Positions 13,201-46,238 of a stretch of 64,000 bases of DNA are shown here, in pieces. The position numbers and the translations under genes are program-made. This stretch comes from Candidatus Zhuqueibacterota bacterium (GTDB lineage Bacteria; Zhuqueibacterota; Zhuqueibacteria; Zhuqueibacterales; Geothermadaptataceae): the NCBI GenBank assembly GCA_030950365.1, contig JAUZRQ010000045.1, positions 1 to 64,000 on the forward strand, written 5' to 3'. How positions within the stretch are numbered: the first letter of the stretch is position 1; each line of letters opens with the position of its first letter. The notes below the pieces were generated by a model, which worked only from the letters and a program-made list of their open reading frames with translations, had not been told where the DNA came from and did not search any database.

Positions 13201-16200
13201 AACCCCGGCGGAATGCGCAGAGGAATCCGGTACAGGGTCCAACCCCCGCCCTGTTTGTCATCGCTGGCGATGAACACGGTATCCGGGCTGAGCTTGTCGA
13301 GGTTGATGGTGTATGAAAAATAGTTATTGGCACGATCCACCGAACCATTGCCGTTGAGGTCTTCGGTGTTCGGAATGCGTGTGCCATCGTTCTTGTTGTT
13401 TTCAGTTCCGTTGATGAAGTCATAAAAATTGCTGCCTTCCGAATACGACCAGTCGTCCCAACTGATCGGCTCCCACGGCTCGCGCACACCGTTGCCGTTG
13501 ATGTCCCACCAGTCTTCGGGGTCTTTGCCCGGCATGCCATCGAGCCCGACGTCTTCATCATCTTCGAGGGTGTTGTTGCGGATGCCCCCGCGCAGCTTGT
13601 CTTCGGTATCCAGCCGCCGGTTCGGAATCACATCCTCGGAAATCTGACCGAGATCAATATGAAGAATGCCTTTATCGCCGCGCACCATGATTTCCAGGAA
13701 TTTGCTTTCGGTCTGATCGTAGAATCCAGGCGACAGTGCGCGCATGATACCGCCCCAGGATTCCTGCACCGGAAAGCTGCCGCTATCATGCGGAAAAAAG
13801 ACCAGCGTCAAAATATCGGTTGTCTGGCCGGTCTGCACGTTCACCTCACGCTTGGGCCAGATGTCTTTGATGGGCCAGCCGCCGAACGGATTGTACCAGA
13901 TGAGCCGGCCGCGCTTTTCCGAGCTGCGCATATACGCCTCAATGGTGTTGCCCTCGATGTATTCCATGGGCGCGGAAGAAAGGGTCCATCCACGGCGCTG
14001 CACGCCGAGCGGAGTCACGCGCTTGGCGCTCTCGAAATCATCGATGTAGGCCACGCCTTCATCGTCTTTGGTGGCCGTGTTGTTCAGCGTGTTCGGATTG
14101 GGGATCACCTGCGCGATTTCGCCCTCGAACTTCAGACTCGATGGCTGCTGCGCCGAAATCAGCGGCAGCGCATCCAGGGCTTTGGTGAGAAAATTCGGTT
14201 TGAAGTTCAGAGACGTATTCAAATCCCAGACCACGTTGCGCATGGGCCCCTGTCCGACCCGCACTTTGGTGTCGAGGGTGCGCTCATTGAGGTACAAAAT
14301 GGTGCCGCCCAGGAAGTTATTCTCGCCAAAGCGGTATTCGGCGCGCGTGCCGAGGATGGTTTTCTTTTCGAGCTGGAAAAGCTGATTGCGCTCATAAGTG
14401 ATGTCGATCTGCGCGTTGGGGTCGGTGGCGCGCTCGTCCAGGATCGTCAGCGTGCCGGAAAGATAATCGATGGTGTAATCGCGACCGCGCTGCAATCGCT
14501 GGCCGTTCAGGATGACTTCTTCAGAATTTTCAATCACATTGAAGCCCAGCGAGTAATTGGCGCTGCGGTTTTTCGAGCGCACTTCGATATAAAACCGGCT
14601 GTTCTGGGTAATGAAACTCTGACTGGTGGTATCGTAAATCGCGGGTTCGCGTTTTGCCGGATCGAGCTTGGTAATCTCATATTCATTTGGTTCGATAATG
14701 CCGTTTTTATTGAAATCGATGAACACCGTGTCCGGATCGAACGGCCGGAGGTTGGGGAAAATCAGCTCGCCGCGCGCCCGGTTGATCAGATTGTCGTCGA
14801 TGTCGATGTTGTAGTCCGGATTGAGGTTGCCATCCTTGTCGCGCACATCCAGACCGAAAATGTGCAAATACGAATCCTCCCCCTGGCTCTCCTCGTCGGA
14901 CCCCGATGGCGGCTGATAAAATATCTTGACCTTGAAACTTTCTTCATCCACTTCAATATTGCGGGCGCCGAGGGAGTACACATTTTTCCATTCCAGATTC
15001 CAGGTTTTAAAACTGGGCGTTGGACTCTGCGCCTTTATCAGTTTCAAAATAATGGTGCTGTCGGCCTGGGCATCGAAGTCGATATCGCCGAATTTGTTAC
15101 CGGAGCTGTCCTCAAAGGCCACAGCCAGTACATCCTCCGGCCCCAGCGGCTGGTTCATGATGATGTAGCCCAGACTGTTCTCGACTACATAATCCTGCTC
15201 CGGCTCCAGGCGGACGAAATGGCCGAGATACACTTCTTTATCGCTGATGTTTAGCGTGTCTTGTGGGCTGTTCGGATCGAGGATAGCCCACCCGCGGATG
15301 GAATTGGGATCGTACTCGAGGCCGGCCTTTGATTTGTACACCTCGATGCGCTTGATGGCACGCGCCGGATCGTACATGTGCACCCATTTTTCGCTGTAGT
15401 TGCGATACTGACGGCGAAAAAACTCATCGAGGAAGAAATAGGTGAACCGCTTGTAGCGATAGTCCTCGATGCGCTGCTTGCCTTCGGTGGCGCCGCCGCC
15501 GATCTTCAACCGCTGGCTTTCGCCTTTTTCCTGACTGGCGATGGTGGTCACATGCAGATCGCCGAGCTGCATTTTCATTTTCACGCCGAACAGGCCGGTG
15601 TTTTTGCCGCTGAAGGTCACAAAACGCGTTGCGGGCAGAGACAGCGAAATGTTTCCAGCTTCGATACTCTGGATCACCTCATCCTCAAAACCCCGGTAAT
15701 TCAATTTAATGTTGTTATCAAAGTCGAAAGCTCGCTCGGAATCCTGATCCACATTGACCGTGACCTTTTCACCAATGCGACCGGTCACGGTAAAGCGCTG
15801 CGTCTGGTTCATTTTGAAATTGGTATTCGAGCCCTGAGCGATGGAAGTTCGTACCTCGCTGCGCTTTTCGTGACGGAATCCTCCCTCGATACGGATATCG
15901 CCCTGCACATTCAATCCGACACTGCTGCCGCCGAAAATTTTCTGGAACGTCTGGCTTTTGATCGGTACCGGGATATCGATATTCACACCGCCCGGACCGC
16001 GCCGGTTCTGGCTAAGCGAAGCAAAAAGATGCTTGACCATGCTTTCGCGCCAAACGCGTTCCCGTGTATGCTCGGCCTGAACCAATTTATAGCGAGAAAA
16101 TGGTACAAAGCGTGGCAGGCGCAGATGATGGCCCAAAAGCGTTTCGTTAGCCACAATAAACCGAGAGGTGGAATCCAGCTTAACGGTATGGCGATAGGAT

Positions 16201-16448
16201 CGCGGACGGACAAAGGCGTAATGCGGCGGCAGCCCTTCCATAGACAGACCGGGCCATTGCTGATCCTGGTAGAGATTGGCAAGGGGGGCTGCCGGTTCAG
16301 GTAGCCGCAACCCGATGCCCGAGTCCGAAGTCAGTTCATGATTTCCCTGTGAAAGTGCCGATTGAGTCAGGCTAAGAAGAAGAGTGACAGTAAAAAGCCA
16401 ACGGGAAATCGAACGGTCGGTGAATTTTGGATAAAATCTGGAGACCAT
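10260..16448 (-). CDS. sprA: SprA-like giant outer-membrane protein
   Basis: A 2062-aa protein of the SprA family. In Bacteroidota SprA is the type IX secretion translocon, a 36-stranded outer-membrane barrel also needed for gliding. The signal peptide likely ends ALS / QGNHE. The long N-terminal half has repeated SprA-type modules and Asp/Asn-rich calcium-like loops (DINGNGVREPWEP, NTEDLNGNGSVDR). The C-terminal half consists of alternating beta-strands with many Ser/Asn/Arg turns, and the last residues form an amphipathic strand. A Lys/Glu/Arg-rich low-complexity insert lies near residues 1700-1730. It is slightly shorter than F. johnsoniae SprA (about 2400). A promoter and about 190 nt of structured leader precede it. 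Family assignment is strong; a role in type IX secretion outside Bacteroidota is not established by this window. Confidence 0.9.
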   Translation of the reverse strand: MVSRFYPKFTDRSISRWLFTVTLLLSLTQSALSQGNHELTSDSGIGLRLPEPAAPLANLYQDQQWPGLSMEGLPPHYAFVRPRSYRHTVKLDSTSRFIVANETLLGHHLRLPRFVPFSRYKLVQAEHTRERVWRESMVKHLFASLSQNRRGPGGVNIDIPVPIKSQTFQKIFGGSSVGLNVQGDIRIEGGFRHEKRSEVRTSIAQGSNTNFKMNQTQRFTVTGRIGEKVTVNVDQDSERAFDFDNNIKLNYRGFEDEVIQSIEAGNISLSLPATRFVTFSGKNTGLFGVKMKMQLGDLHVTTIASQEKGESQRLKIGGGATEGKQRIEDYRYKRFTYFFLDEFFRRQYRNYSEKWVHMYDPARAIKRIEVYKSKAGLEYDPNSIRGWAILDPNSPQDTLNISDKEVYLGHFVRLEPEQDYVVENSLGYIIMNQPLGPEDVLAVAFEDSSGNKFGDIDFDAQADSTIILKLIKAQSPTPSFKTWNLEWKNVYSLGARNIEVDEESFKVKIFYQPPSGSDEESQGEDSYLHIFGLDVRDKDGNLNPDYNIDIDDNLINRARGELIFPNLRPFDPDTVFIDFNKNGIIEPNEYEITKLDPAKREPAIYDTTSQSFITQNSRFYIEVRSKNRSANYSLGFNVIENSEEVILNGQRLQRGRDYTIDYLSGTLTILDERATDPNAQIDITYERNQLFQLEKKTILGTRAEYRFGENNFLGGTILYLNERTLDTKVRVGQGPMRNVVWDLNTSLNFKPNFLTKALDALPLISAQQPSSLKFEGEIAQVIPNPNTLNNTATKDDEGVAYIDDFESAKRVTPLGVQRRGWTLSSAPMEYIEGNTIEAYMRSSEKRGRLIWYNPFGGWPIKDIWPKREVNVQTGQTTDILTLVFFPHDSGSFPVQESWGGIMRALSPGFYDQTESKFLEIMVRGDKGILHIDLGQISEDVIPNRRLDTEDKLRGGIRNNTLEDDEDVGLDGMPGKDPEDWWDINGNGVREPWEPISWDDWSYSEGSNFYDFINGTENNKNDGTRIPNTEDLNGNGSVDRANNYFSYTINLDKLSPDTVFIASDDKQGGGWTLYRIPLRIPPGFEDRNRKRVGNPDLSLIQYARIWINGVSEETVIRIAEINLVGNEWKELGVSDTEDPNSYNAENDTTVAVTVVNTHDNPKYQPPPGVEGKFDRLYRIREKEQALVLDVNGLKPGQNGIAQKTFFQPQNYIYYNKLRMFIYAKDEGGLHITPDSSTIEIFFRFGSDINNYYEVRERVYAGPSPMLGAWDERNHIDIEFIKLTSMKLDSSLFNADLGVFEKEINGKLYRIKGNPSITNVRTLIVGVRNLSNLNAPFYGQIWLNELRLSEVQKNRGIAMRARMDLKLSDFMTVNAEINRQDADFHNVATRFGSGDNRLSTRLNGNVKLDKFLPQSWGISLPLNITYNESRATPKYFPGKDIEVVPGEVPKDKLAEIQSFNRQQGLSLSFRKSKRSKNFLLRYTIDKLSGNFSHTRTNMSSATIRFQKRMVWKGALDYSLQFGQNTFIRPFNWAQKLPLLSKLAETKLYYLPRSFSAKISGNNSRSSSETRSGVKSDVNTYDITRSYNTTIKIFDNLSTTFARTMQGDFRKRGWQGLFSGEFEDLSKSQNFRVDYSPNIFSWLNQRFSYNSTYRYVNNIQQKTTGKSANVSANVSAQLTLRLSQLFRKSSRAGTYGRRRRTPPGARRRPPGARGKEEGEKKKEKEKEEEKKKRSPVSVLKGMLSVLRTLDDINVSYSKRRNYRNVGLKPGDPNFKYTLGFSTDPGLGTVPEITTVTFTNNESESFDVSTGLRLGRSLSLKLRFNHSSQANYGNQVTGSYSNSWIQVGDFNIPFPEWTFTWSNIERFKLFRKFANSINISHNVSGKRSVFWKDEKARKTKEDFSFNFTPLFKLSINWKNGMVTNLDITRTRSINESFNINTVTDQLQKVGGQRNTRLELRFTTTYSKRSGFRIPFLSKKELKNSVDFSLSFTKSLNKTEQIRGNSNEWVLSNERSSWTFEPRVTYEFSSRVRGAAKFIVGKTKSTRAGETFIREFGIDVNISIRGN
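11262..11303. repeat. 42-nt pure pyrimidine tract inside sprA
   Basis: The plus strand is uninterrupted C/T for 42 bases; the coding (minus) strand is therefore homopurine and encodes the Lys/Glu run in SprA. It is flanked at 11320-11370 by a GC-rich near-repeat (GCGCCCGGCGG units) encoding two Pro-Gly-Ala-Arg motifs. Such tracts are prone to slippage and can form triplex DNA. No frameshift is present here. Confidence 0.85.
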
Positions 16449-34297: not shown

Positions 34298-34338
34298 CCA
34301 ACAATAAAAGAGCCACCCACGGATCGTGGGTGGCTCTT
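34298..34338 (-). terminator. intrinsic terminator of the TPR-ExbBD-AgmX operon
   Basis: Perfect 13-bp stem AAGAGCCACCCAC / GTGGGTGGCTCTT (34308-34338) with a 5-nt loop, followed on the minus strand by TTATTGTTGG. It lies 26 bp after the stop codon of the last gene. Confidence 0.85.
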
Positions 34339-34364
34339 ACTTAAGCCAGGTTTTGAACTCTAAA

Positions 34365-35474
34365 TTAATACCCAAAGGTGTACACCTGTTTGAAAGCGGT
34401 ATTCCCTTTGGATTTCTCGATAGCGCCGAAATTCCAACGTTTAATGCGGTTGACGATGCATCGCTCAACACGACGATTGCGTAGCGTGGATGATACGATG
34501 CTCACTTCAACCACTTTACCTGAAGCATCGATGATGAAACGCACCACCACTTTGCCACGCAGGTTCGGGTTGCGCTTCAGCTCGCGCTGATAACAATACT
34601 GGATCGCAGCATTGTGGGATTTGACAATCGCCGCCACAGCATCGATATCGCGTCCCCCCCGATTGACGGTTTCGTCGGCTTCCTCCAACAATGAACCTGA
34701 AGCGTCGGTAACCAGATTGTTGCTGCGCGATACCCCGGATACTTCCGATTTCCCCAATCCTTCGACCAGCTCATCAATGCCTCCGCCACCGGTCTCGCGT
34801 GCGGCGCGAATGTTTCGGCCTTTTCGGGGGCCGCCGGCGCCGGCTTCGCCGCGCTTCAGGCCGGATATGTTTTCAAGCGCCCTGTCCAGATTCTGTCCCA
34901 CCTTGCCGCTAGTGAGAACGTCCTCCACTTCCGAGCCAGAGGCCGTTTTACTTGTGCTGGTAAGCAACCCGAGGATCCCCTGATTGCTCACCGCTTTTTG
35001 AATCTGTTCCCGCGAGCGGCGCCGGCCGGCTGCGGCGGTGGCCCGCTCAGCCTTGCGGCCTTCCACCGTGGCTGCGCGTCGTCCTTTCCCACTCCGCTTC
35101 GGCTGGCTTTTTTTGCCAGGCTTGGGTTCGGCCTTTTTCTCTTCTCTGGCCGCCTTGGCTTTGCCAATATCGGTAGTCTCAGCGAATTTGACGGTTTCCT
35201 CGATCTTTGGTCGGTCCAGAACCAGACTGGCAAAGCGCTTCTGGATTTGTGCTATTTCCTTGTCCGTTACTTCCGTAGTGGGCGGATGCGTTGCAAAATA
35301 ACTTACCATTGTCAGATGGATCAGCAGCGAAACAATCAGAATCGCGGTATATCGTTTGTCCAGACTATCAATGAATCGCCGTTCGAATTCTTTTGGAAAT
35401 ACGCCTGCGCCTACCTGTTCCATGTCTTGAGATCGGCCCTCCCTGGCAATTGAATGGTTGGATTGCATCGCCAT
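34365..35474 (-). CDS. AgmX/PglI-type TonB-like energy-transducing protein
   Basis: A 369-aa protein with a cytoplasmic N-terminus, one membrane helix (about residues 43-63), a long Lys/Arg/Ala- and Gly-rich periplasmic linker (about 75-280) and a C-terminal AgmX/PglI domain (about 285-369). That domain has its two characteristic cysteines (IQYCYQRELKRNPNLRG and RRVERCIVNRIKRW), then NF and a terminal aromatic strand. The domain is a TonB relative found in AgmX/GltJ of the Myxococcus gliding machinery. It is last in an operon with a TolQ/ExbB channel and two ExbD proteins, so it should span the periplasm and be driven by the proton motive force (inference). A strong terminator follows. Confidence 0.85.
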   Translation of the reverse strand: MAMQSNHSIAREGRSQDMEQVGAGVFPKEFERRFIDSLDKRYTAILIVSLLIHLTMVSYFATHPPTTEVTDKEIAQIQKRFASLVLDRPKIEETVKFAETTDIGKAKAAREEKKAEPKPGKKSQPKRSGKGRRAATVEGRKAERATAAAGRRRSREQIQKAVSNQGILGLLTSTSKTASGSEVEDVLTSGKVGQNLDRALENISGLKRGEAGAGGPRKGRNIRAARETGGGGIDELVEGLGKSEVSGVSRSNNLVTDASGSLLEEADETVNRGGRDIDAVAAIVKSHNAAIQYCYQRELKRNPNLRGKVVVRFIIDASGKVVEVSIVSSTLRNRRVERCIVNRIKRWNFGAIEKSKGNTAFKQVYTFGY

Positions 35475-35538
35475 ATGGACACCTTTTCTTTGTCCTTTTC
35501 TGGGCTGAATACAAAATGCCCTCAGTTTGACATCGGCA

Positions 35539-36048
35539 CTATTCTTCTTTTCTATAGACGACCAGGCGCATATTGGGATACTCGGATAAGCCGCACGTTC
35601 GCATCACTTTGACCAGTTGCGCGTACTGTAAATCCTTGTCGCCCTGAATCGTCACCTTGCCCGAAAATTTTACTCCGTAATCTTCTTCCATCTTTTTAGC
35701 ATGCTTAGCAAAATACAGAAGCTTGTCTTGCAGCGGTTTAATAACCCCGTTCTCCACCACACCGGGCTTGTTCTGGATCACATCCTGCAGCTTCACCACC
35801 GGTTCGTCGTTCACCATGATGATCTGCTTCGACACCACCAAATCCAGCGCCACTTCCGGTGGATTCTCAATGGTGGATTTAGGCAGGGTCAAATGCTGGG
35901 AGGGCGAAATGAGTTGGCCCTCGGTCGAATAGGTCTTTAACAGGAAAAGCAAGATGATGGTAAACATGTCCATCATCGAAGTTAGATTCAGCTTCGCCTG
36001 CCCCGGATCGGTTTTATGCTTTTTAATTCTGGATGGTATAAACGCCAT
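35539..36048 (-). CDS. ExbD/TolR-family protein with conserved membrane Asp
   Basis: A 169-aa single-pass protein of the ExbD/TolR family. The membrane helix (about 22-42) begins NLTSMMDMFTIILLFLL, with the proton-carrying Asp of the family in place. The periplasmic part (about 60-169) has the ExbD pattern of strands, ending with GDKDLQYAQLVKVMRTCGL. With the TolQ/ExbB gene two positions upstream it should form a proton-driven stator. It is the second of two adjacent exbD genes; the other lacks the Asp. GAGG lies seven bases upstream of the ATG. Confidence 0.9.
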   Translation of the reverse strand: MAFIPSRIKKHKTDPGQAKLNLTSMMDMFTIILLFLLKTYSTEGQLISPSQHLTLPKSTIENPPEVALDLVVSKQIIMVNDEPVVKLQDVIQNKPGVVENGVIKPLQDKLLYFAKHAKKMEEDYGVKFSGKVTIQGDKDLQYAQLVKVMRTCGLSEYPNMRLVVYRKEE

Positions 36049-36102
36049 CGCTCATCCTCGATTGTTTCGACGTTATCGGTTCCCGAATTCGCTCATGCAG
36101 CA

Positions 36103-36645
36103 TTACTGTTCGATGATCCCGGCACTCAACGATACCTGGGGGAACAGCACCACCTGTCGATGATTGATACTAATAGTTCTGGACGCATCCATGGTGCTGA
36201 CCAGGGTCTGGTAATCGATGCCGGGCTCTGCCTGGATGATGATATTCTCCAGGTCGGGGAATTTACCCTGCGCCTTCTGCTTGATTTCGTACAACTTTTC
36301 CGACAGGGCCTGAAAATCGAATGAGCCATCAGGCTTTTTGGGGATGGAGGGGCCGGCTCCGCTCTTGGGCCGCAGCACCGCCAGAGCGCTGGAAATGTAA
36401 AACCCCTCATCCGTAATGGACACTGTCAGGTCCAGGTTTTTCACCTTTTCCTGCGGTTTTTCGCTCACCGTTTTCACCGGCCCGGCAGCCGGCGGCAAAT
36501 TCAGCTCAATGCTGCCAATCTTGATAAACTCCGCCGATGTCAGCAGAAGCGGAATCAACACCACCATCAGGTTCATAACAGGGGTCAGGTTGGGTTCAAC
36601 CTCTTCCCCTTCGATGGTCCTGCGAAAAGATGGTCTGTACGCCAT
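36103..36645 (-). CDS. ExbD/TolR-family protein with Asn in place of the membrane Asp
   Basis: A 180-aa single-pass ExbD/TolR relative. Its membrane helix reads NLTPVMNLMVVLIPLLL: the position of the essential protonatable Asp of ExbD, TolR and MotB is Asn (AAC codon at 36573-36571). The periplasmic domain (about 50-180) is of normal ExbD type. The gene is intact and sits between the ExbB gene and the Asp-bearing exbD, so loss of Asp appears to be a designed asymmetry, not decay (inference). In ExbB5-ExbD2 type stators, a mixed dimer would carry only one proton-relay Asp. Confidence 0.88.
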   Translation of the reverse strand: MAYRPSFRRTIEGEEVEPNLTPVMNLMVVLIPLLLTSAEFIKIGSIELNLPPAAGPVKTVSEKPQEKVKNLDLTVSITDEGFYISSALAVLRPKSGAGPSIPKKPDGSFDFQALSEKLYEIKQKAQGKFPDLENIIIQAEPGIDYQTLVSTMDASRTISINHRQVVLFPQVSLSAGIIEQ

Positions 36646-36726
36646 AGTTCACTATACCCGGTTTATCGCATCCTGTTTATGCGTTGTTATGAATTGTGAA
36701 TGAAGAATGCACCCAATCCTTCGGCC

Positions 36727-37377
36727 TTACTGATTGCCGGTGATCAGGTTGATCAACTTCACCGTGTGCTCATCGATCTCGTCGATGATTTTGATGGTTT
36801 TGTTGTGCAAAAAGGTATAAACCAGGATCGATGGGATGGCGATGGCCAGACCGAGCAGTGTGGTGTTCATGGCGGTACTGATACCGGCGGCCAGCATGCG
36901 CGATTTCTCGGCCGCATCGATACCGGCGACCGACACTGAACGGAACGCCAGGATCAACCCCCAGATGGTGCCCATAAGACCGATCAGGGTGGCGACGTTC
37001 GCCAGCATGGCCAGAAAACCGGTGCGTTCCTGCAACTTCGGAATCACTTCCAGTGTACCCTCGTCAACCGAGTTCTGAATGGTTCGGAAATCGATGCTTT
37101 CACTTTCGGCAACTTTACGCAGGCCAGCGCCGACGACTTTCGGCAGGGCCTTGTTGGGGGCTGCTTCACACAGGGCCAGAGCGCGCTTGTATTCGCCCGC
37201 ACGTACCAGTTTGCGAATTTCCGCCATGAACTTCGGCGCATCGATGTTCGAGCGCACGATAATGTAATACGTCCGTTCAATGGCAATGGCGATGGCCACC
37301 GCCGCCACAATCGCCAGAGCTACCATGAAATAGAAACCACCGGAATCAGGGGAAAATCCAGCAATAATTTCACTCAT
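36727..37377 (-). CDS. MotA/TolQ/ExbB proton-channel protein
   Basis: A 216-aa inner-membrane protein of the MotA/TolQ/ExbB family, the channel ring of proton-driven envelope motors. Three membrane helices: near the N-terminus (VALAIVAAVAIAIAIERTYYII), and two later (ATLIGLMGTIWGLILAF and MNTTLLGLAIAIPSILVYTFL) with the conserved polar Thr residues of the channel. A cytoplasmic helical domain lies between the first and second. The start at ATG 37377 has GGAGG eight bases upstream; an in-frame ATG 15 bp earlier is disfavoured because it would lie before that site. Followed by two exbD genes and an AgmX/TonB-like gene. Confidence 0.93.
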   Translation of the reverse strand: MSEIIAGFSPDSGGFYFMVALAIVAAVAIAIAIERTYYIIVRSNIDAPKFMAEIRKLVRAGEYKRALALCEAAPNKALPKVVGAGLRKVAESESIDFRTIQNSVDEGTLEVIPKLQERTGFLAMLANVATLIGLMGTIWGLILAFRSVSVAGIDAAEKSRMLAAGISTAMNTTLLGLAIAIPSILVYTFLHNKTIKIIDEIDEHTVKLINLITGNQ

Positions 37378-37528
37378 CGAATAAACCTCCATTTTGAGTT
37401 TAAAGTCCTTTTTTCATAGGCACCCCACAACTCTATTTGGTGGGAACACCTATCCACTCAGGTGATTTCAGGTATTTTCGAATTTGGTTTTGGAAATTTG
37501 CGAAGGCGCTTGAACGACGTCCTCGTCA

Positions 37529-37930
37529 CTACTTTTTCAGTTTCTTCTGCCGCTTTTTCAGAATGGCTCTAAGGCGTGTCAATCGTTTGGCCGAATCCAA
37601 CTCCTCATCATACAGCAGTAGATTTTTGGGGATTTCTTTGATTTCGTGTTCAAACGTGCGATCGATAAAGGCGATCTCTTCCATATCCGCCTTGATACGT
37701 TTGGGGAAAATATCCACATTGGGCTTTTCCACCACCGCCTCGATGATGATCTCTCCCAGTTCAAACTCCGGCACGACGACTTTTTCCGCCGGCTTCTTTT
37801 TCTTGTCTTTATCGGCCGGCTTTTGCGCTGGCGGTTTTGCCTGCGACCTGGCCTTTTGAGGCTGCTGCCCCAGAGCCATCGCGGGCACTAGCCCCAGCAT
37901 CAGCGCGAAAACCAAACTCCATTTGCGCAT
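37529..37930 (-). CDS. small periplasmic protein of unknown function
   Basis: Not recognised. From ATG 37930 it has 133 aa: a signal peptide ending ALG / QQPQ (mature Gln), a Lys/Pro/Ala-rich linker (about 25-50), and a compact C-terminal part with a hydrophobic strand region (ELGEIIIEAVVEKPNVDIFP) and a basic tail ending in Lys-rich helix. AGGTGG sits five bases before the ATG. It lies 11 bp downstream of the giant TPR gene and upstream of ExbB, so it is probably a dedicated component of the same envelope system. The Lys-rich tail could contact peptidoglycan or membrane. Confidence 0.75.
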   Translation of the reverse strand: MRKWSLVFALMLGLVPAMALGQQPQKARSQAKPPAQKPADKDKKKKPAEKVVVPEFELGEIIIEAVVEKPNVDIFPKRIKADMEEIAFIDRTFEHEIKEIPKNLLLYDEELDSAKRLTRLRAILKKRQKKLKK

Positions 37931-37941
37931 CTCAACCACCT

Positions 37942-40900
37942 TTAATTTGCTTTCGGCAAAATGCCTTTATCGAACAGCAGATTTTCCTGCTCGCGTTTTT
38001 TCTGCACGCGAATTTCGGCTTCGCGTTTGGCCCAGCCCGGCAGGCTCTTCAGGAATACCAGGGCTTCCAGACTGCCCCCACTACGGTCATCATCGTGAAC
38101 AAACAACGCAATACGGTTCTTGCCGGAGGCCAGGAAATCGCTGAAATCGTGCACCTGCGGCGCGGCCTGCACACTGTCGAATTTCGCCTCGCTGATGAAT
38201 TCGCCGTTCACGAAAAGCTGATAGCCATCATCAGCCACGATTTGAATCTGCGCCATGACCGGCAATCCCGGCACGTCAAAATTCTTGCTGAAATAGACCT
38301 GGTGCACCGGCTCCTTTTCTTGCACAGCCACAGCGGTCTCCGCCGAATCGGTCATGGCCACCTGCAGCGAATCGCTGCTGTCGGTAACCGTGGCCTGCGG
38401 TGCCAGCGCCAGGGTGTCCACCGCAGCGGTATCCGCAGCCATGGCCGTCATTCCGGTGTCGACCACAGCCGGTCCGGACGGCCAGCGAAACCAGATGCGT
38501 TTCACGGCATAGCCGGGAAAGGCATGGGGCGAATCCACGACGGTGGCGGCAGGCCAGGCCGAATCATCGAAATCGGCCTCCATCCAGCGGTCACCGGGCT
38601 CGGGGGTGGCCTTCCAGGTCTCATCGGAACCGATGGTGAAATCATGGATATCCAACCCGAGAATACCGGCATATTCCTCCGGGTTCGTCCGCACCAGCGC
38701 AAGCACAATGTTTTCCGTATCTTCGTTCTGCAACTGATATTTCTGCACGGCGGCAAAGCCCTGTTCCAGAACCTCTTTTTTCGTGTCCAGCAGGCTGAAA
38801 TAATTGTCCTCGAACGTGAACAGACCGTCTTCGAGATAAGTCTCGCTGGACTGGCGCAATTTGGCTTCAAACGCTTTGCGGTGATGATTGGTCATCTGCG
38901 CCAGCGAATCCACCTTCAGCGAGAACCGGTTCACAAACCGGAACATGTCTTCTTCAGTGTTCAGCAACTCATAGTTCTGAATGTCCTGCTTGAGAGCGGT
39001 TTCAATCGTGTTTTCATAGGCGTGCACGGTTGCTTTGGCAAACGCGTTGCCGAAGTCGATGAAATTGGCCATTTCATCGGCAATACCCAAAGCCAGCACA
39101 TTGTCTTCGGGCAGCGTGGACAGGTACGCCGGCATGCGTTCTTCATAACCATGCAGCGCATCCCAGGCCAGCTTACTGTACTCCGCCGCGATGATGGCGT
39201 TGGTCGAGATGATTTTGCTGCGCGACGACTCAACCCACTGGTTGTCCAGGCCAAGCTCTTCGGCCTCCGCCAGGTTGCGAGCATGCGCCCGTACGATCTT
39301 ATCCACCAGTGGCCTCACGAACTTGCCAATCAACTGATTCCGGAATTCTAGAGCAGTAATCTTATCCAGCCCGGGCGGCAGAGGGGCATTAAGCAACTGT
39401 TGCACCGATGAAAAATTAATTTCGGCGATATCGTAAATGACCTCGGAAATCTTTTCATTTGAACGCTCGATCCATCGTTTGGCGATCCGCAGGGTAGAAT
39501 CAGCGAAGCTCACTTTCTCACCAGCTTTCGGCGATTCCAGACTATCACCATTGCTCATGGAGTCCCGGTACTGTTCAGAAATCCGCGTAAGTACCTCGCG
39601 GCTATTTTTGTAAGCTTCAAGAGCGCGTTCGTACAGCTCAGCCGCCGTTTCGTTAATCTCCTTTTTGGCCACAATACGCTTTTCGATCTGCGCTTCCGGG
39701 ATGTCCTGATTGGCCCAGGTTTCGGCAAAATTCTCATAAGCCATTCCAATCTTGAACGTGGCTTCATACAGGCGAATTGTACCATAAGCCGCCACACGCG
39801 CATAGTTATCCACAATTTCTAGCAGCATCTTTTTCTTGCGCTTTTTGGCCTGGGCCATGCGCTCCGGCGGCAACTTGAATTCGATTTGTATGTATTCACC
39901 AAATTTCAGATCCGTCAGCCGGAACAACGCCTCGGCGGCAAAAAACTCATTGGCATCTTTTCCAGCTTTTGCAAAGGCCTCACTCTTCTGAATGGCCTGC
40001 TGATATTCTTTTTTCGCCTGATCGAGCTGCCCATGGCTCTCGAAATATTCGCCTCGACGATAATATGTCTCTACCACGCGCGGCGAATCCGGAAAGCGTT
40101 GAGCATAATCGCCATAAATTTCATTGGCTTTATCGAAATCGCCAAGCTTCAAGTAATAGGTGGCGATATCGTAAAACAGGTCATCGGCGTCTTTGGAATT
40201 GGGATAGCGATCGACGAACTTTTTGTTGACTCGGATAGCGCGATTCCAGTCTTCTGCCTTCACATAGAACACCGATGCGTTGTACAAATGCGTTTCCGCC
40301 TTCACAGAATCGGGGTCTTCCTCAGCCAGCCGCTCGAAGGTCAGTGCCGCATTAGTGTAGTCTTTAAGTTCGCCGTAATCCAGAGCCATGTTATTGAGCG
40401 CTGAAATGTAGTACTGCGACTGCGGAAACCGCTGGGTGAGATTGGTGTATACTTCCACCGCCAGACTATATTCGCGAGCGCGATCGTATTCGAGGCCGGC
40501 GTTGAACATTGCCAGATCGGCGAATTCAGCATCCGGCACCTCTTCGGCCACGCGGCGGTATTCTTCCGCCGCCCGGAAGTGCTTCTCCAGATCGGCGAGG
40601 TTTTCGGCCTGCAGAAAAATCGCCTCGGCCAGCCGCTGATTAGCTTTTGCCACATATTCCGGGTTATGCGCCTTGCGCCGCAGCCTCTTGGCCACGATTT
40701 CTACACTCTTATAATCTAGCTTACCGAAATAGCTCTCCATCACCAGATATTCAGAATATTCGGCTAAGGGATGCTCAGGGAAATGCTTCAGTAGTGTTTT
40801 GAAATATTTCAGCGCATCCACGAAGTGATTTTTGTTGTAATAAATCGATCCCGCCTGACTCAGACGCTCCGGCGTATCATCATCAAATGGAAACAATTTT

Positions 40901-42585
40901 ATAAAATTATCGATAGCCTGCGTAAGCATGATCTCGCCTTCGGAGAGCGGGATGGGCTCGAGCTGCAGCGATTTGCGCAATTGACTGCTATCCTGCAACG
41001 CCTTTTCGCGCATCTCGCTCAGCGCTAGCGGCATCACTTCCTCGCGTTCCACCGTATCTGCGGCGGCAAGGTCCTGAGCAATGGCCACGGCGTTCTTCGC
41101 GGCATCCTTCTGAAATTGGGTATCCCAGTATTCGTTGCTGATTTTGATAAATTCTTTGAAGGCCGATTTGGGCATGTTCAATTTCGTGTCGAGAATCAAC
41201 GCCATGTTCCAGTGGATTTTCACGGCGTTGCTATCTTTCGGAAAGGATTTCAGGTATTCCCGGCTGTCTTCCACTGCCTGGTAATACAGGTTTTCATCGC
41301 CCGTTTCGTTGGCGGTTTGCACCAGCAGGTTGATGTTGGCGCGCATGGCCAGTTCGGCCAGCTCGTAGGCCCGCTTCCGGGCATCTTCATCATCGACGTT
41401 CTGCCACCAGTCCGAGCCCTCGCGGTAGTTTTGAAACAATTCCTTCCGGGCGAGATAGGTCTTTTGGTCATTGCCCATCTTGCGGTAGGCCTCCGCAATT
41501 TTCGCCTGAATCAGCGGTGCGTCCTTGGCAAACGGATACATGCGCAAAATGGTGTCATAGGCTTGAACAGCCATCTCGTATTCTTCTTTCACTTCCAGAT
41601 AGGCGTCGCCCATTTTTTTGAGAATATCGAATCCATACTCGCGGCCGCCGATCTCCTCGAGGTATTTGGCCACGCCATCCACGCCGCTGAAATCAAGAAA
41701 ACTGATGCCGATGTATTCGACCGATTCTTCCTTCAGGGCCGGGTTGGTAATACGATTGTTCGGATCGTATTTGCGCGCCTCCTCGATATCGTCGGCCAGC
41801 ATGGTGAAATAGGAGATGGCCTTCGGATAGTCGTTCAGGCGATAATAGCTCCAGCCGAGACGGTACAGCGCTTCATCGTAACGCGGGCTATCGGTGTAGG
41901 CCAGTATTTGCTTATAAATTTCGATGGCCCTTTCGATCTGATTGACCGGCGGATTGAAATAATACTCGGCCTGCCGCATCAGCACTTCGGGCATGTAGCG
42001 GCTATCCGGGAACATCTGAGTAAACTTTTCATACAGCGCAATGGCATCCTCGCGCTGGCCAACTTCTTCGGTCAGATAGGCGATGTTATACATCGCGTCA
42101 TCCAGCAACTGGCTATTGGGGAAATGATCAACGATGTACTGGTACAGCGCAATGGACCGCGAATAATCTTTCTTAGGTTCTTTGGGCAACTCAGCGATTT
42201 TTCCCTCGTCATAGAGGTCGAGCATTTCGCCGTATTTTTCTTGAGCGAACTGGTAATTTTCCTCGGCCTTTTCCAGATACAGCTCGGCCAGCCGGAACAC
42301 GACTTTATCGAGCACCCGACTATCGGGATGGTTGCGGATGAACGCCTCGAGATCGCGGATGCCTTTTTCGCGCAGCTTGATGCGCTCGGCTTCAAGACGA
42401 TCGCGTTCGGCTTGATAAAATTCCTTGTACGATAGCAATTCGTCCAGCGAATAGACGCGCAGCAGAGAATCCCCCAGCGCATCGACCGCCGCAATTGAAG
42501 CGATCGTCTGCTTGTTCTGCGCCTGTCCAGCAGCCGCAACCGCAACTGCAAAAGCCAAAATCATCATAAATGGATTTTTTTTCAT
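37942..42585 (-). CDS. giant secreted TPR protein with C-terminal carbohydrate-binding-like domain
   Basis: A 1547-aa exported protein. The signal peptide is followed by a predicted cleavage that leaves Gln (GQA / QNKQ). Residues about 40-1270 are dominated by tetratricopeptide repeats in at least three blocks, with recurring FPDS, AIALYEKF and YEEALY-like patterns, separated by charged helices. From about residue 1305 the sequence changes to beta-rich jellyroll-like: WMEADFDDSAWPAA, VYFSKNFDVPGLPVMAQIQI and ADDGYQLFVNGEFISEA, the signature of galactose-binding-like modules in glycosidases. That domain is split by an Ala/Thr/Asp/Ser-rich low-complexity stretch (about 1372-1420). It is the second gene of the TPR-ExbBD-AgmX operon. 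Function unknown; a periplasm-spanning or surface adhesion scaffold is one possibility. Confidence 0.85.
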   Translation of the reverse strand: MKKNPFMMILAFAVAVAAAGQAQNKQTIASIAAVDALGDSLLRVYSLDELLSYKEFYQAERDRLEAERIKLREKGIRDLEAFIRNHPDSRVLDKVVFRLAELYLEKAEENYQFAQEKYGEMLDLYDEGKIAELPKEPKKDYSRSIALYQYIVDHFPNSQLLDDAMYNIAYLTEEVGQREDAIALYEKFTQMFPDSRYMPEVLMRQAEYYFNPPVNQIERAIEIYKQILAYTDSPRYDEALYRLGWSYYRLNDYPKAISYFTMLADDIEEARKYDPNNRITNPALKEESVEYIGISFLDFSGVDGVAKYLEEIGGREYGFDILKKMGDAYLEVKEEYEMAVQAYDTILRMYPFAKDAPLIQAKIAEAYRKMGNDQKTYLARKELFQNYREGSDWWQNVDDEDARKRAYELAELAMRANINLLVQTANETGDENLYYQAVEDSREYLKSFPKDSNAVKIHWNMALILDTKLNMPKSAFKEFIKISNEYWDTQFQKDAAKNAVAIAQDLAAADTVEREEVMPLALSEMREKALQDSSQLRKSLQLEPIPLSEGEIMLTQAIDNFIKLFPFDDDTPERLSQAGSIYYNKNHFVDALKYFKTLLKHFPEHPLAEYSEYLVMESYFGKLDYKSVEIVAKRLRRKAHNPEYVAKANQRLAEAIFLQAENLADLEKHFRAAEEYRRVAEEVPDAEFADLAMFNAGLEYDRAREYSLAVEVYTNLTQRFPQSQYYISALNNMALDYGELKDYTNAALTFERLAEEDPDSVKAETHLYNASVFYVKAEDWNRAIRVNKKFVDRYPNSKDADDLFYDIATYYLKLGDFDKANEIYGDYAQRFPDSPRVVETYYRRGEYFESHGQLDQAKKEYQQAIQKSEAFAKAGKDANEFFAAEALFRLTDLKFGEYIQIEFKLPPERMAQAKKRKKKMLLEIVDNYARVAAYGTIRLYEATFKIGMAYENFAETWANQDIPEAQIEKRIVAKKEINETAAELYERALEAYKNSREVLTRISEQYRDSMSNGDSLESPKAGEKVSFADSTLRIAKRWIERSNEKISEVIYDIAEINFSSVQQLLNAPLPPGLDKITALEFRNQLIGKFVRPLVDKIVRAHARNLAEAEELGLDNQWVESSRSKIISTNAIIAAEYSKLAWDALHGYEERMPAYLSTLPEDNVLALGIADEMANFIDFGNAFAKATVHAYENTIETALKQDIQNYELLNTEEDMFRFVNRFSLKVDSLAQMTNHHRKAFEAKLRQSSETYLEDGLFTFEDNYFSLLDTKKEVLEQGFAAVQKYQLQNEDTENIVLALVRTNPEEYAGILGLDIHDFTIGSDETWKATPEPGDRWMEADFDDSAWPAATVVDSPHAFPGYAVKRIWFRWPSGPAVVDTGMTAMAADTAAVDTLALAPQATVTDSSDSLQVAMTDSAETAVAVQEKEPVHQVYFSKNFDVPGLPVMAQIQIVADDGYQLFVNGEFISEAKFDSVQAAPQVHDFSDFLASGKNRIALFVHDDDRSGGSLEALVFLKSLPGWAKREAEIRVQKKREQENLLFDKGILPKAN

Positions 42586-42599
42586 TGAATTACCATCAT

Positions 42600-45509
42600 T
42601 TACAGAATTTCACTCGACCCCTTACTGCTCCGTTGCTCAACCGGCAGTTCCGTTGTCGTGGTATCGAAGTACAGTTTTTCGAAAATCTTCTCGTGTTCCA
42701 ACTTTCTCAAGCGCAACTGTTCGGCTTCCAGTTCCTCGCGAATTTTCTCCATCTCGGCATCGAAGCGAGCAAGACGCTCTTCAAGCACCTTACGGCGACG
42801 GCGCATGAGCTCCTCGATGAACATCATGTTTTGCGTGTATTGCGAAATCTTCTCGTCGCGTTTCTGGATTTCCTGCATGGTAATATCGCTCAGGCCGAAG
42901 CCGGAAAAATCCGCCCAATGATCGAAATCCGTGGAAATCTCTTCCACTTCATGTTCGCTCAGCCAGGTCTGGAATCGGTCCATGCGATCCTGTAGATACT
43001 CCAGGTCTTCCTGCAACGCTACCAGATCGATCTGAGTGGCTTGCTCGGGGTGTTTCTTTACCAGCTCGCGCGCTTTTTGCATCGCTTTTTCAATGCGGGC
43101 TTTCTCCAACTCCATGTCGCGCAACATCTCTTGCAGCACGCGTTTGCGGTACTTGCTGCTGCTCTCACGCGTTGCCAGCGGATAGTCGATGAAGTAATTG
43201 ACATGGTCGATTTGTCGATCGGCCTGATAGGTTGTTAGCGCTTTGATAAGTCGCTGTCGCTGCGCCATGGCCGTCTTCAGCACATCATTCCGTCCGGCCT
43301 TTCGCGCCTCGGCAATAATTTGCTCCAGTTCCTGAATCTGGCGGTAAATCGCCTGGCGTTCGGAATCAAACTCCTGGATCAGGGTGCTGCCGATGCCGCC
43401 TGCATAGCCGAGATTTAAAATCTGCTTCTGCAATTCAAACTTGATCTGCGAAATCACTTCATATAGCTGCCGGTCCTGGCGGTCGAGTACCTTTTTCTCC
43501 ATTTCCTCTAGTTCATCCAGTTGTTCCAGCAGCCTGTGGCGCTCTTCGTTGTAGCGATCGGCGATATCCAGCACGCCGCGGGCATTGGCCACATAACGCA
43601 AGTCTTTGAGCGCATCATCGGGCTGGTTCAGCAGCCGCTTGCAATGCGCTGCCAGTACAAGCGCTTCGTAGGTGTAATTGCTGCCCAGATAATTGCCAAA
43701 CAGCTCGTTCACCACGCGGATGGCTTCTTCGTATTCTCCATTTTTCATGTGAGCCCAGGCCAGCCCAACTAGCACCTTGTCGCGGCCTTCCACACCCCGG
43801 CTGATCCGGTTCAGATATTCCAGAGCCTTCTCATATTCGCCGCGATCGTAATAGATGTAGCCCAACTTCAGCAGCGCATTGTTTTTCAGCTCGGCCAACA
43901 ACGGATCGGACCAGGGCAGCAAATTGGAATCCACCAGCAGCGAAAAAATGCGCGTGGCGCCCTCGTAGGCACCGCGATTGGCTAGCGCCAGTCCGGTGAG
44001 GTACAGCCCGGGGAAGTAATATTTGGAACCCTTTTCGATTTTGGTCAGCGCCTCTTCCGCCGAGCGCGTGTCGCGGTTTTGCAGAAAATAGTAGCCGGCC
44101 AGATAATAGATCCGGTTGCGGATTTTCGGATGCACCTGCTCGGCAAATGTTTTGAATCTTTCGAATAGCTGATAAAAATCATTTTTGCGACTGAGGGTTT
44201 GTGCTATGGTCAGCATGCGTAGATACACTTCATCCCGAAAACGCGTGTTGGGGTAATCGGCCAGCAATTCTTTGTAACCGTCGTAGGCCTGCTCGTAAAA
44301 CAGCTGTGCATACTGTGCCTCAGCACGGTAAAAATACACCGCTTCCATTTTCGGAAAATAGCGGCGGTAATCTTCAATGATCTGATCGAACTGCAATTCG
44401 GCCAGCCGAAATTGGCCATCGGCATAATTGAGCAGCGCATCGTTCAAATCCCGTTCCAGCATGCGCGATCGCTCGCGCGAATCGCCATTTTTGATCAGGA
44501 AGACTTTCATCACCTTGTATTCGGTGAACTTGGCCTCCCATTGGCTGAGCCGCGCCTTGCGCCACTCGTCAAACATCTGGCTGACCGTGGGCCCCTGTAG
44601 CGGCAGATAGTCGTCATAGCCAAACATCTTCAACAGCCGCCGATCCATTTTAGACAGCAGTTCGCGGCGCAGAATCTCCACTTCGGTGAGCGTTTCGGGA
44701 TCGCTCTGGCTGGCCTTTTTCTGGATGGATTCCAACTCCTTGAGCACACGGATGGTTTTCTGCACTTCGCTGAAGTATTCGTCGGCCAGTTTTTGCTTCA
44801 AACTGTCACTCTGCGTGCTGTCGCCCAGCGCAATGATTTCCAGGATTCGCCTCTTCTGTCGGCCGATCCGATCCAGCAAATCGTAATCATTCAGCCGGCG
44901 TGCGGCTTTTTCCATTTGCGTCAGGCGATTGTAAAATTGCTTGAAATAATCCAGCTCGAAATCATATTCTTTGAGCAGCGAACTCACATAGCCGTAGGTG
45001 ACGGGCAACTTTTTGTACAGGTCACGGTTATCGATAACGGCTTCCAGCGAATCCTTCAGAGCCGCGAAGAGATCGGCCATGCCATACCGCTGTTCGCGCA
45101 CCATCAGGTCTTCCAACTCGGTAATTTCGGCGATCAGCGTTTTGATTCGCTCGATTTCTTCATTATAAGATTTTACCATGCCCTCGATATCGCCGTATAG
45201 ACGGCCAAAGCCTGGCTGGTCTTCGAGAATGGTTTTGGCCCCGCGGCTTTTAATCTCGGCCGAAATATTCTGAATCAATTGCAGGAGCATCCTCTCCTTG
45301 ACGACCATTTCCTGCAGAAAAGCTTTACTCTGCTCATCAAGGTAGAAGCGAAGACGCTCCTCAAAATCGACTTTGACGGCTTCTTCGATTTCACGGGGAT
45401 TTTGAGCCAGCACTGGAGATGCACTTCCCGCCAGGAGTACAAGCAAGATCAAAACAAAAAGGAATAAAGGCGGAAGGCTATGCTGAACTCTCCCTAGTTC
45501 CTTGCGCAT
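42600..45509 (-). CDS. large secreted coiled-coil/TPR protein
   Basis: A 969-aa exported protein, first gene of the operon. The signal peptide ends PVLA / QNPR (mature Gln). Residues about 40-340 are long amphipathic, Glu/Arg-rich coiled coils; about 360-650 are TPR-like helical repeats (AELQFDQIIEDY, AYDGYKELLADYP, YEKALEYLNRI); about 660-950 are again coiled coil, including a strongly Arg/Glu-rich segment near residue 900. The gene is followed 14 bp later by the giant TPR gene. Large size, TPRs and coiled coils fit a periplasmic scaffold working with the ExbB/ExbD/AgmX proteins. No enzyme motif is seen. Confidence 0.83.
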   Translation of the reverse strand: MRKELGRVQHSLPPLFLFVLILLVLLAGSASPVLAQNPREIEEAVKVDFEERLRFYLDEQSKAFLQEMVVKERMLLQLIQNISAEIKSRGAKTILEDQPGFGRLYGDIEGMVKSYNEEIERIKTLIAEITELEDLMVREQRYGMADLFAALKDSLEAVIDNRDLYKKLPVTYGYVSSLLKEYDFELDYFKQFYNRLTQMEKAARRLNDYDLLDRIGRQKRRILEIIALGDSTQSDSLKQKLADEYFSEVQKTIRVLKELESIQKKASQSDPETLTEVEILRRELLSKMDRRLLKMFGYDDYLPLQGPTVSQMFDEWRKARLSQWEAKFTEYKVMKVFLIKNGDSRERSRMLERDLNDALLNYADGQFRLAELQFDQIIEDYRRYFPKMEAVYFYRAEAQYAQLFYEQAYDGYKELLADYPNTRFRDEVYLRMLTIAQTLSRKNDFYQLFERFKTFAEQVHPKIRNRIYYLAGYYFLQNRDTRSAEEALTKIEKGSKYYFPGLYLTGLALANRGAYEGATRIFSLLVDSNLLPWSDPLLAELKNNALLKLGYIYYDRGEYEKALEYLNRISRGVEGRDKVLVGLAWAHMKNGEYEEAIRVVNELFGNYLGSNYTYEALVLAAHCKRLLNQPDDALKDLRYVANARGVLDIADRYNEERHRLLEQLDELEEMEKKVLDRQDRQLYEVISQIKFELQKQILNLGYAGGIGSTLIQEFDSERQAIYRQIQELEQIIAEARKAGRNDVLKTAMAQRQRLIKALTTYQADRQIDHVNYFIDYPLATRESSSKYRKRVLQEMLRDMELEKARIEKAMQKARELVKKHPEQATQIDLVALQEDLEYLQDRMDRFQTWLSEHEVEEISTDFDHWADFSGFGLSDITMQEIQKRDEKISQYTQNMMFIEELMRRRRKVLEERLARFDAEMEKIREELEAEQLRLRKLEHEKIFEKLYFDTTTTELPVEQRSSKGSSEIL

Positions 45510-46200: not shown

Positions 46201-46238
46201 TAAAACAAAAAGCCACAACCGCAATGGCTGTGGCTTTT
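46201..46238 (-). terminator. intrinsic terminator of the ATP synthase operon
   Basis: AAAAGCCACA / TGTGGCTTTT stem (46208-46238) with a loop of about 11 nt, then TTTTGTTTTA on the minus strand. It lies 36 bp after the atpC stop. Confidence 0.8.

Follow-up and report, generated by a model that had tools for sequence, protein, structure and literature searches.

A seven-gene operon of candidate division KSB1, probably a diverged sister of the Agl-Glt/Nfs core complex

Within the gene set of the Agl-Glt gliding machinery of Myxococcus, Luciano et al. distinguished in 2011 a core complex that consists of the group B genes aglR, aglQ, aglS, gltC, gltD, gltE, and gltG (PMC3169522). This core complex is encountered as one operon in Gammaproteobacteria, a betaproteobacterium, Geobacter, and Fibrobacter, with a function that is unknown in most of these hosts, and it has been described as ancestral to both Agl-Glt and Nfs and judged unlikely to drive motility by itself (PMC3169522). 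The question of its original function has stood since 2011, and a near-universal, vertically inherited version placed among housekeeping genes is a place to test it. This paper describes a seven-gene operon in a 64,000-nucleotide stretch of DNA from a Candidatus Zhuqueibacterota bacterium (assembly GCA_030950365.1, contig JAUZRQ010000045.1, positions 1 to 64,000), hereafter referred to as the window. We estimate a probability of about 0.7 that this operon encodes an envelope-spanning, proton-driven force transducer that is a diverged sister of the Agl-Glt/Nfs core complex and is ancestral in candidate division KSB1, to which the host belongs, and in Calditrichota.

The operon comprises seven open reading frames, all on the minus strand and spanning 45509-34365, which encode two large tetratricopeptide repeat (TPR) proteins (TPRa and TPRb), a short exported protein (S), an ExbB/TolQ-type channel, two ExbD/TolR-type proteins (ExbD1 and ExbD2), and a transducer. 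Pfam searches detected MotA_ExbB, ExbD twice, and many TPRs among the encoded proteins. Like the Agl-Glt core complex, this is a single operon outside the myxobacteria that combines one AglR-like ExbB and two ExbD proteins with a GltG-like transducer carrying an AgmX/PglI tail, a weakly GltC-like TPR protein, a large TPR protein that by synteny takes the place of GltD, and an additional gene. Unlike the core complex, it includes no GltE, has no FHA domain on its GltG, and carries Asn instead of Asp in ExbD1, while TPRa is longer and TPRb is both longer and extended by a C-terminal beta-sandwich. Moreover, its hosts are outside the list of the 2011 survey, and it is inherited vertically beside atp genes and aspS. 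Because three tested features are absent (GltE, FHA, and an Asp in both ExbD proteins), the operon is, as judged from its sequence, a variant of the core complex that appears to work like and to be related to that set, and not a member of it.

The order TPRa-TPRb-S-ExbB-ExbD1-ExbD2-GltG was found on a single strand, for all recognised members, in each of the 97 loci that carry both TPRb and ExbB, and all seven genes were seen in 80 of them; such linkage greatly exceeds what chance would produce. These loci represent 77 distinct ExbB sequences, and some genomes were reached by two routes, so that the independent cases are fewer than 97. Intergenic gaps measure 14, 2-11, 136, 81, 54, and 64 nt (5' to 3') in the window, and their medians across loci range from 3 to 47 nt. 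The initial annotation, which had proposed one minus-strand unit with short gaps that unites ExbB, two ExbD proteins, and an AgmX-tail protein, is supported by the placement of the open reading frames and by the Pfam and NCBIfam matches; scattering of the genes in relatives, which it had named as contrary evidence, was looked for and not seen in any of the 97 loci, and the search for the same gene order in other phyla found it in Calditrichota besides KSB1. In a scan of named genomes the loci are labelled KSB1 and Calditrichota (a few metagenome-assembled genomes, MAGs, bear other names), with a few outliers; high-scoring GltG was not found in the phyla of two outlying genomes (six genomes and one genome searched). 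The closest named record, WFVT01000025.1, is 86% identical across TPRb, and a TPRb ortholog is present in 54 of 69 genomes of the phylum (E<=1e-100). In the window the operon lies downstream of atpG, atpD, and atpC and upstream of aspS (recognised from sequence and used as BLAST probes), and among the 71 loci with sufficiently long flanks atpD is upstream in 45 and aspS downstream in 52, including most Calditrichota loci. The conserved order and the atp/aspS setting make inheritance look vertical, as for an old unit shared by two phyla. Searches of viral contigs with TPRb, and of plasmids with TPRb and with the GltD-like and GltG-like proteins of a second core complex of this genome, gave no relative; a plasmid search with ExbB retrieved a cluster from Vibrio.

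This setting also bears on motility, for which the initial annotation had suggested a role at the cell surface. In a gliding machine the motor would push TPR-linked outer-membrane adhesins and the cell would move as in Myxococcus, and the homology to the Agl-Glt core is what speaks for it. Specific support was not found: the operon contains neither gltE, whose model NF033758 matches nothing in the genome but unlinked TPR proteins (and gives matches in 12 of 14 control genomes as well), nor a recognised group A gene (gltA, B, F, H, I, J, K), as judged within the operon and without a genome-wide group A search. The presence of the operon is near-universal and vertical, with atp/aspS-linked inheritance over two phyla, motility powered by the core complex by itself has been considered improbable (PMC3169522), and Caldithrix abyssi possesses genes for flagella and type IV pili with gliding not reported. 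Gliding as the main task is unlikely, because the parts differ clearly and the operon sits among housekeeping genes.

The transducer finds its best matches in the GltG/PglI models (NF033760, GltG, 1e-33; NF033768, 8.4e-29), both of which match 31 of 31 transducer orthologs, and it matches AgmX/GltJ at 2e-11. With a score of 117 versus an equivalog cut-off of 650 it is related to GltG but not an equivalog. About 40 residues precede a single transmembrane helix (residues 43-61), which is followed by a Gly/Ala-rich linker and the AgmX/PglI tail (276-357) with two invariant Cys residues (294 and 339); the GltG match (residues 27-350) runs mainly via this tail and includes the linker. An SxxxH motif is found in the transmembrane helix of the window transducer and of most KSB1 orthologs, and in TonB and TolA this motif contacts ExbB/TolQ. 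None of the 31 orthologs matched an FHA domain, and a search of solved structures with the transducer returned weak TonB matches only. The Agl-Glt-like parts list of the initial annotation thus stands as far as a related motor and an AgmX-tail transducer are concerned; the identification of the latter as AgmX/GltJ is not supported, since GltG scores far better.

For the two giant TPR proteins, initially considered to be without counterpart, relatives were found, and the gene combination itself had been described in 2011 as the group B core complex (PMC3169522). TPRa is the top match in the whole genome to the gliding_GltC model (NF033756), although a weak one (34 bits versus a cut-off of 450); this model matches 19 of 33 TPRa orthologs (best 2.7e-13, below the cut-off throughout), which are also matched by generic TPR models. 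Profile-profile comparison identified TPRa as homologous to the TPR protein of ~455 aa in the second core complex (E 2.8e-41, 379 columns), and among solved structures it retrieved designed TPRs. TPRb is collinear over ~960 residues with proteins of 1193 and 1292 aa from two unrelated MAGs (loci L166 and L171); the GltD of M. xanthus measures 1191 aa. In L171 the TPRb homologue is flanked by GltC-matching and GltE-matching genes, with GltG farther on, and in L166 the next genes are GltE-like, ExbB, and GltG-like; this places the homologue where GltD is expected. No match of TPRb to a GltD-named NCBIfam model was seen, and its assignment is by synteny and collinearity. The short exported protein, S, had no significant family match in domain and family profile searches; its orthologs (65 distinct sequences aligned) share the motif I.I.A.(V/I)EKP.V.I.PKR.....RSF..E, and AlphaFold2 predicts an extended protein without a fold of its own (predicted template modelling score, pTM, 0.24). 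The conserved linear motif and the lack of a predicted fold suggest that S is a short adaptor.

The C-terminal domain of TPRb was modelled by AlphaFold2 with a predicted local distance difference test score (pLDDT) of 85.9 and a pTM of 0.76, and Foldseek aligned it with domains of glycoside hydrolase family 2 (GH2) beta-galactosidases, beta-glucuronidases, and an alpha-L-rhamnosidase (E ~1.5e-5 to 5e-5), a fold match limited to part of these large enzymes (TM score by query ~0.25-0.37). Weak profile matches of TPRb to PF02837 and to a rhamnosidase profile were also obtained. The predicted beta-sandwich is a concrete candidate for the glycan grip of the machine, and it is compatible with a mover of surface polymers like Agl-Nfs, in which an exopolysaccharide or other glycan would be drawn over or into the envelope while held by this domain. 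Nfs, a relative studied by experiment, moves a glycan (PMC3858216), and the modelled domain resembles the sugar-binding-like domains of GH2 enzymes; yet the operon contains no polysaccharide genes, and a partial fold match is no proof of binding, which makes this explanation unlikely.

The ExbB protein carries the motif NVATLIGLMGTIWGLI and retrieved TolQ/ExbB in a search of solved structures. In the ExbB tree, the proteins of both KSB1 core complexes group with that of a Vibrio plasmid cluster in a single clade (support 100/99), separate from E. coli TolQ, E. coli ExbB, and the other ExbB proteins of these genomes, and window-type ExbB is a supported subclade (99/97 without L166); M. xanthus AglR was not part of the tree, so that the label AglR-like denotes no direct placement beside AglR. 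This separation argues against an ordinary Ton or Tol energiser serving nutrient uptake or outer-membrane constriction, an explanation that the ExbB, the ExbD proteins, and the TonB_C-like tail might suggest. The unit includes no TonB-dependent receptor, TolA, TolB, or Pal, and the AgmX-type tail carries two conserved Cys residues. An ordinary energiser is therefore highly improbable, in agreement with the initial view that this is not a common Ton or Tol system.

The two ExbD proteins differ at the transmembrane site of the proton-carrying Asp. In ExbD1 this site is Asn in 75 of 76 aligned rows, and in all genuine orthologs, as the single deviating row (L054) is an unrelated ExbD that was wrongly included; ExbD2 has Asp throughout (75 of 75 rows). 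In the second core complex the two ExbD proteins are divided likewise, the first with Asn (12 of 12) and the other with Asp (12 of 13, with one gap). The two ExbD proteins of the Vibrio plasmid cluster have Ser and Asp, and Asp is kept in all ten other ExbD/TolR proteins compared (from these genomes and E. coli). The transmembrane Asp has been reviewed as conserved in both AglQ and AglS (PMC9389320), and an engineered D28N substitution in AglQ abolished proton conductance and paralysed the M. xanthus machine (PMC3858216). The change that kills the Myxococcus motor in AglQ is thus natural and stable here in two paralogous systems, so that it can be tested directly whether a 5:2 motor requires two protonatable axle subunits.

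The working of motor and transducer would follow from that of the known ExbB/ExbD/TonB class. An ExbB pentamer may enclose an ExbD1-ExbD2 heterodimer in which protons would pass via Asp27 of ExbD2 only, so that of the two axle subunits in each motor one would be active and the other silent. GltG would dock on the channel by its transmembrane helix, and its AgmX tail would pull a periplasmic scaffold of TPRa, TPRb, and S, for which the TPRb beta-sandwich may serve as an anchor to glycan. The most likely purpose, although put forward at somewhat less than even odds, is constitutive housekeeping of the envelope in which inner membrane, cell wall, and outer membrane are coupled, Tol-Pal-like in kind, rather than dedicated gliding; such a basic task is favoured by the housekeeping neighbours, the vertical inheritance, and the wide presence of the operon. 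More tentatively still, the operon could be an ancient KSB1/Calditrichota envelope-housekeeping machine with a naturally asymmetric 5:2 motor, displaying a pre-motility role of the ancestor of gliding and sporulation machines. In that case the ExbD heterodimer would be obligate, with one subunit permanently devoid of the proton-carrying Asp, and each motor would make half the usual proton steps and have its polarity built in.

Tol-Pal resembles the window operon in its proton motor, transducer, and periplasmic TPR protein (TPRb has CpoB/YbgF-like repeats), whereas the latter has no TolA, TolB, or Pal in the unit and an ExbB of a different clade. TolB was not detected in the genome at 1e-30, and Pal is absent from the operon (no genome-wide Pal search was made); the operon likewise contains no TonB-dependent receptor. 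At the same threshold TolB was found in 0 of 6 genomes of the family of the window, where canonical Tol-Pal seems to be missing, and a clear TolB is limited to 21 of the phylum's 68 genomes, so that a Tol-Pal-like role is conceivable. Several points weigh against the proposed envelope-housekeeping force transducer. Kinship with the core complex is derived from synteny and from the curated GltC, GltE, and GltG models, with scores far below the equivalog cut-offs, the ExbD1-ExbD2 heterodimer is deduced only from gene pairing, a beta-sandwich fold in the TPRb model does not establish sugar binding, and the explanation as a whole is drawn from sequence, predicted structure, and conservation. In addition, 19 of the 21 TolB-bearing genomes also have the operon, which rules out a simple Tol-Pal replacement, and about 12 genomes of the phylum do without the operon; it is neither a plain Tol-Pal substitute nor indispensable.

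The genomes that have no window-type operon also inform on a possible partner in secretion. The window encodes an SprA-like protein (10260-16448, minus strand; 2062 aa; PF14349, 7e-45), the outer-membrane translocon of type IX secretion, and in several genomes of the phylum SprA is close to the atp-aspS region. The operon might accordingly be the motor of an SprA-type translocon, since SprA is encoded in the same window and in 65 of 68 genomes, and TPRb orthologs show a weak PorW/SprE match. SprA is, however, kept in ten of the twelve genomes without a window-type operon, and three of these ten have no AglR-type ExbB at 1e-25. An obligatory SprA motor is thereby ruled out, and a motor of this type is very unlikely.

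The positions of the operon genes, of the modelled TPRb domain, and of the adjoining terminators are compiled in Table 1.

Table 1. Coordinates in the window of the operon, its parts, and its bordering terminators
Feature	Position	Strand	Description
TPRa	42600..45509	-	969 aa; Sec signal peptide, coiled coil, TPR block, long coiled coil; GltC-like
TPRb	37942..42585	-	1547 aa; signal peptide (by eye), TPR superhelix, C-terminal beta-sandwich; GltD position
TPRb C-terminal domain	38038..38646	-	~residues 1314-1516; predicted GH2-type sugar-binding-like beta-sandwich without catalytic barrel
S	37529..37939	-	exported protein; 136 aa from GTG (37939), 133 aa from ATG (37930)
ExbB/TolQ-type channel	36727..37392	-	AglR-like clade; PF01618 2.4e-24
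ExbD1	36103..36645	-	ExbD/TolR-type; PF02472 5.6e-13; Asn25, codon 36573-36571
ExbD2	35539..36048	-	ExbD/TolR-type; PF02472 5.7e-13; Asp27, codon 35970-35968
GltG-like transducer	34365..35474	-	369 aa; one transmembrane helix; AgmX/PglI tail
Intrinsic terminator closing the operon	34308..34338	-	14 pairs, 9 G-C, then T-rich stretch
Terminator after atpC	46208..46238	-	13 pairs, T-rich tail; divides operon from ATP-synthase genes

A 16-kb scan detected 22 terminator-like sites where 21.0 are expected by chance, i.e., no excess, and the case for termination is therefore based on the two sites listed, which have the longest stems. The first of these confirms the strong terminator that had been noted initially at the end of the operon.

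The second Glt-like core complex of this genome, with a motor of its own, is located at L033:4474-14415 (G000 contig C112) and consists of a gene of ~360 aa in front, TPR proteins of ~455 and 988 aa, ExbB, two ExbD proteins, and a GltG-like protein of 445 aa. The gene for the ~455-aa TPR protein is in two frames in this assembly and intact in relatives (L052:6290-7651). Like the window operon, this set follows the order TPR-TPR-ExbB-ExbD-ExbD-GltG, with the Asn/Asp split and an ExbB of the same clade, and it differs in an FHA-like N-terminus of the transducer (matched weakly by Pfam in 4 of the 11 proteins of that type), shorter TPR proteins (~455 and ~990 aa), the lack of a beta-sandwich, and the extra front gene. 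A comparable arrangement is the Agl-Nfs sporulation machine of M. xanthus, likened here without direct sequence comparison, in which one motor type is also used paralogously with a second Glt-like set; it shows that such sets are able to do work besides gliding, but it borrows AglRQS, whereas each operon here has its own motor.

Divergence within the phylum was seen at several loci. In genus g2 of the same family (L049, L050, L051) the atp-aspS locus is retained with an ExbB of 75-79% identity, and the TPR and transducer genes have diverged almost past recognition, so that periplasmic parts change fast and the motor is fixed. Genome G057 retains ExbB with 67% identity. The genomes of family f10 (G030, G067, G068; locus L068) have no AglR-type ExbB at 1e-25; in G030 the TPR and GltG genes of the second system are present without an adjoining ExbB, and the motor may be lost or shared.

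Two further observations concern genes outside these operons. A cluster on the Vibrio alginolyticus plasmid pMBL96 (L076:453-12565) encodes an ExbB with the AglR motif and two ExbD proteins, linked to outer-membrane barrels, giant immunoglobulin-like proteins, and a BTLCP-type peptidase, and is possibly a mobile, adhesin-linked relative; a similar ExbB match is present on a second plasmid. Finally, a solitary AgmX-tail protein of 412 aa is encoded at L097:7883-9121 (G000 contig C110) amid methionine-synthase and RmlD-like genes, with no ExbB or ExbD nearby.

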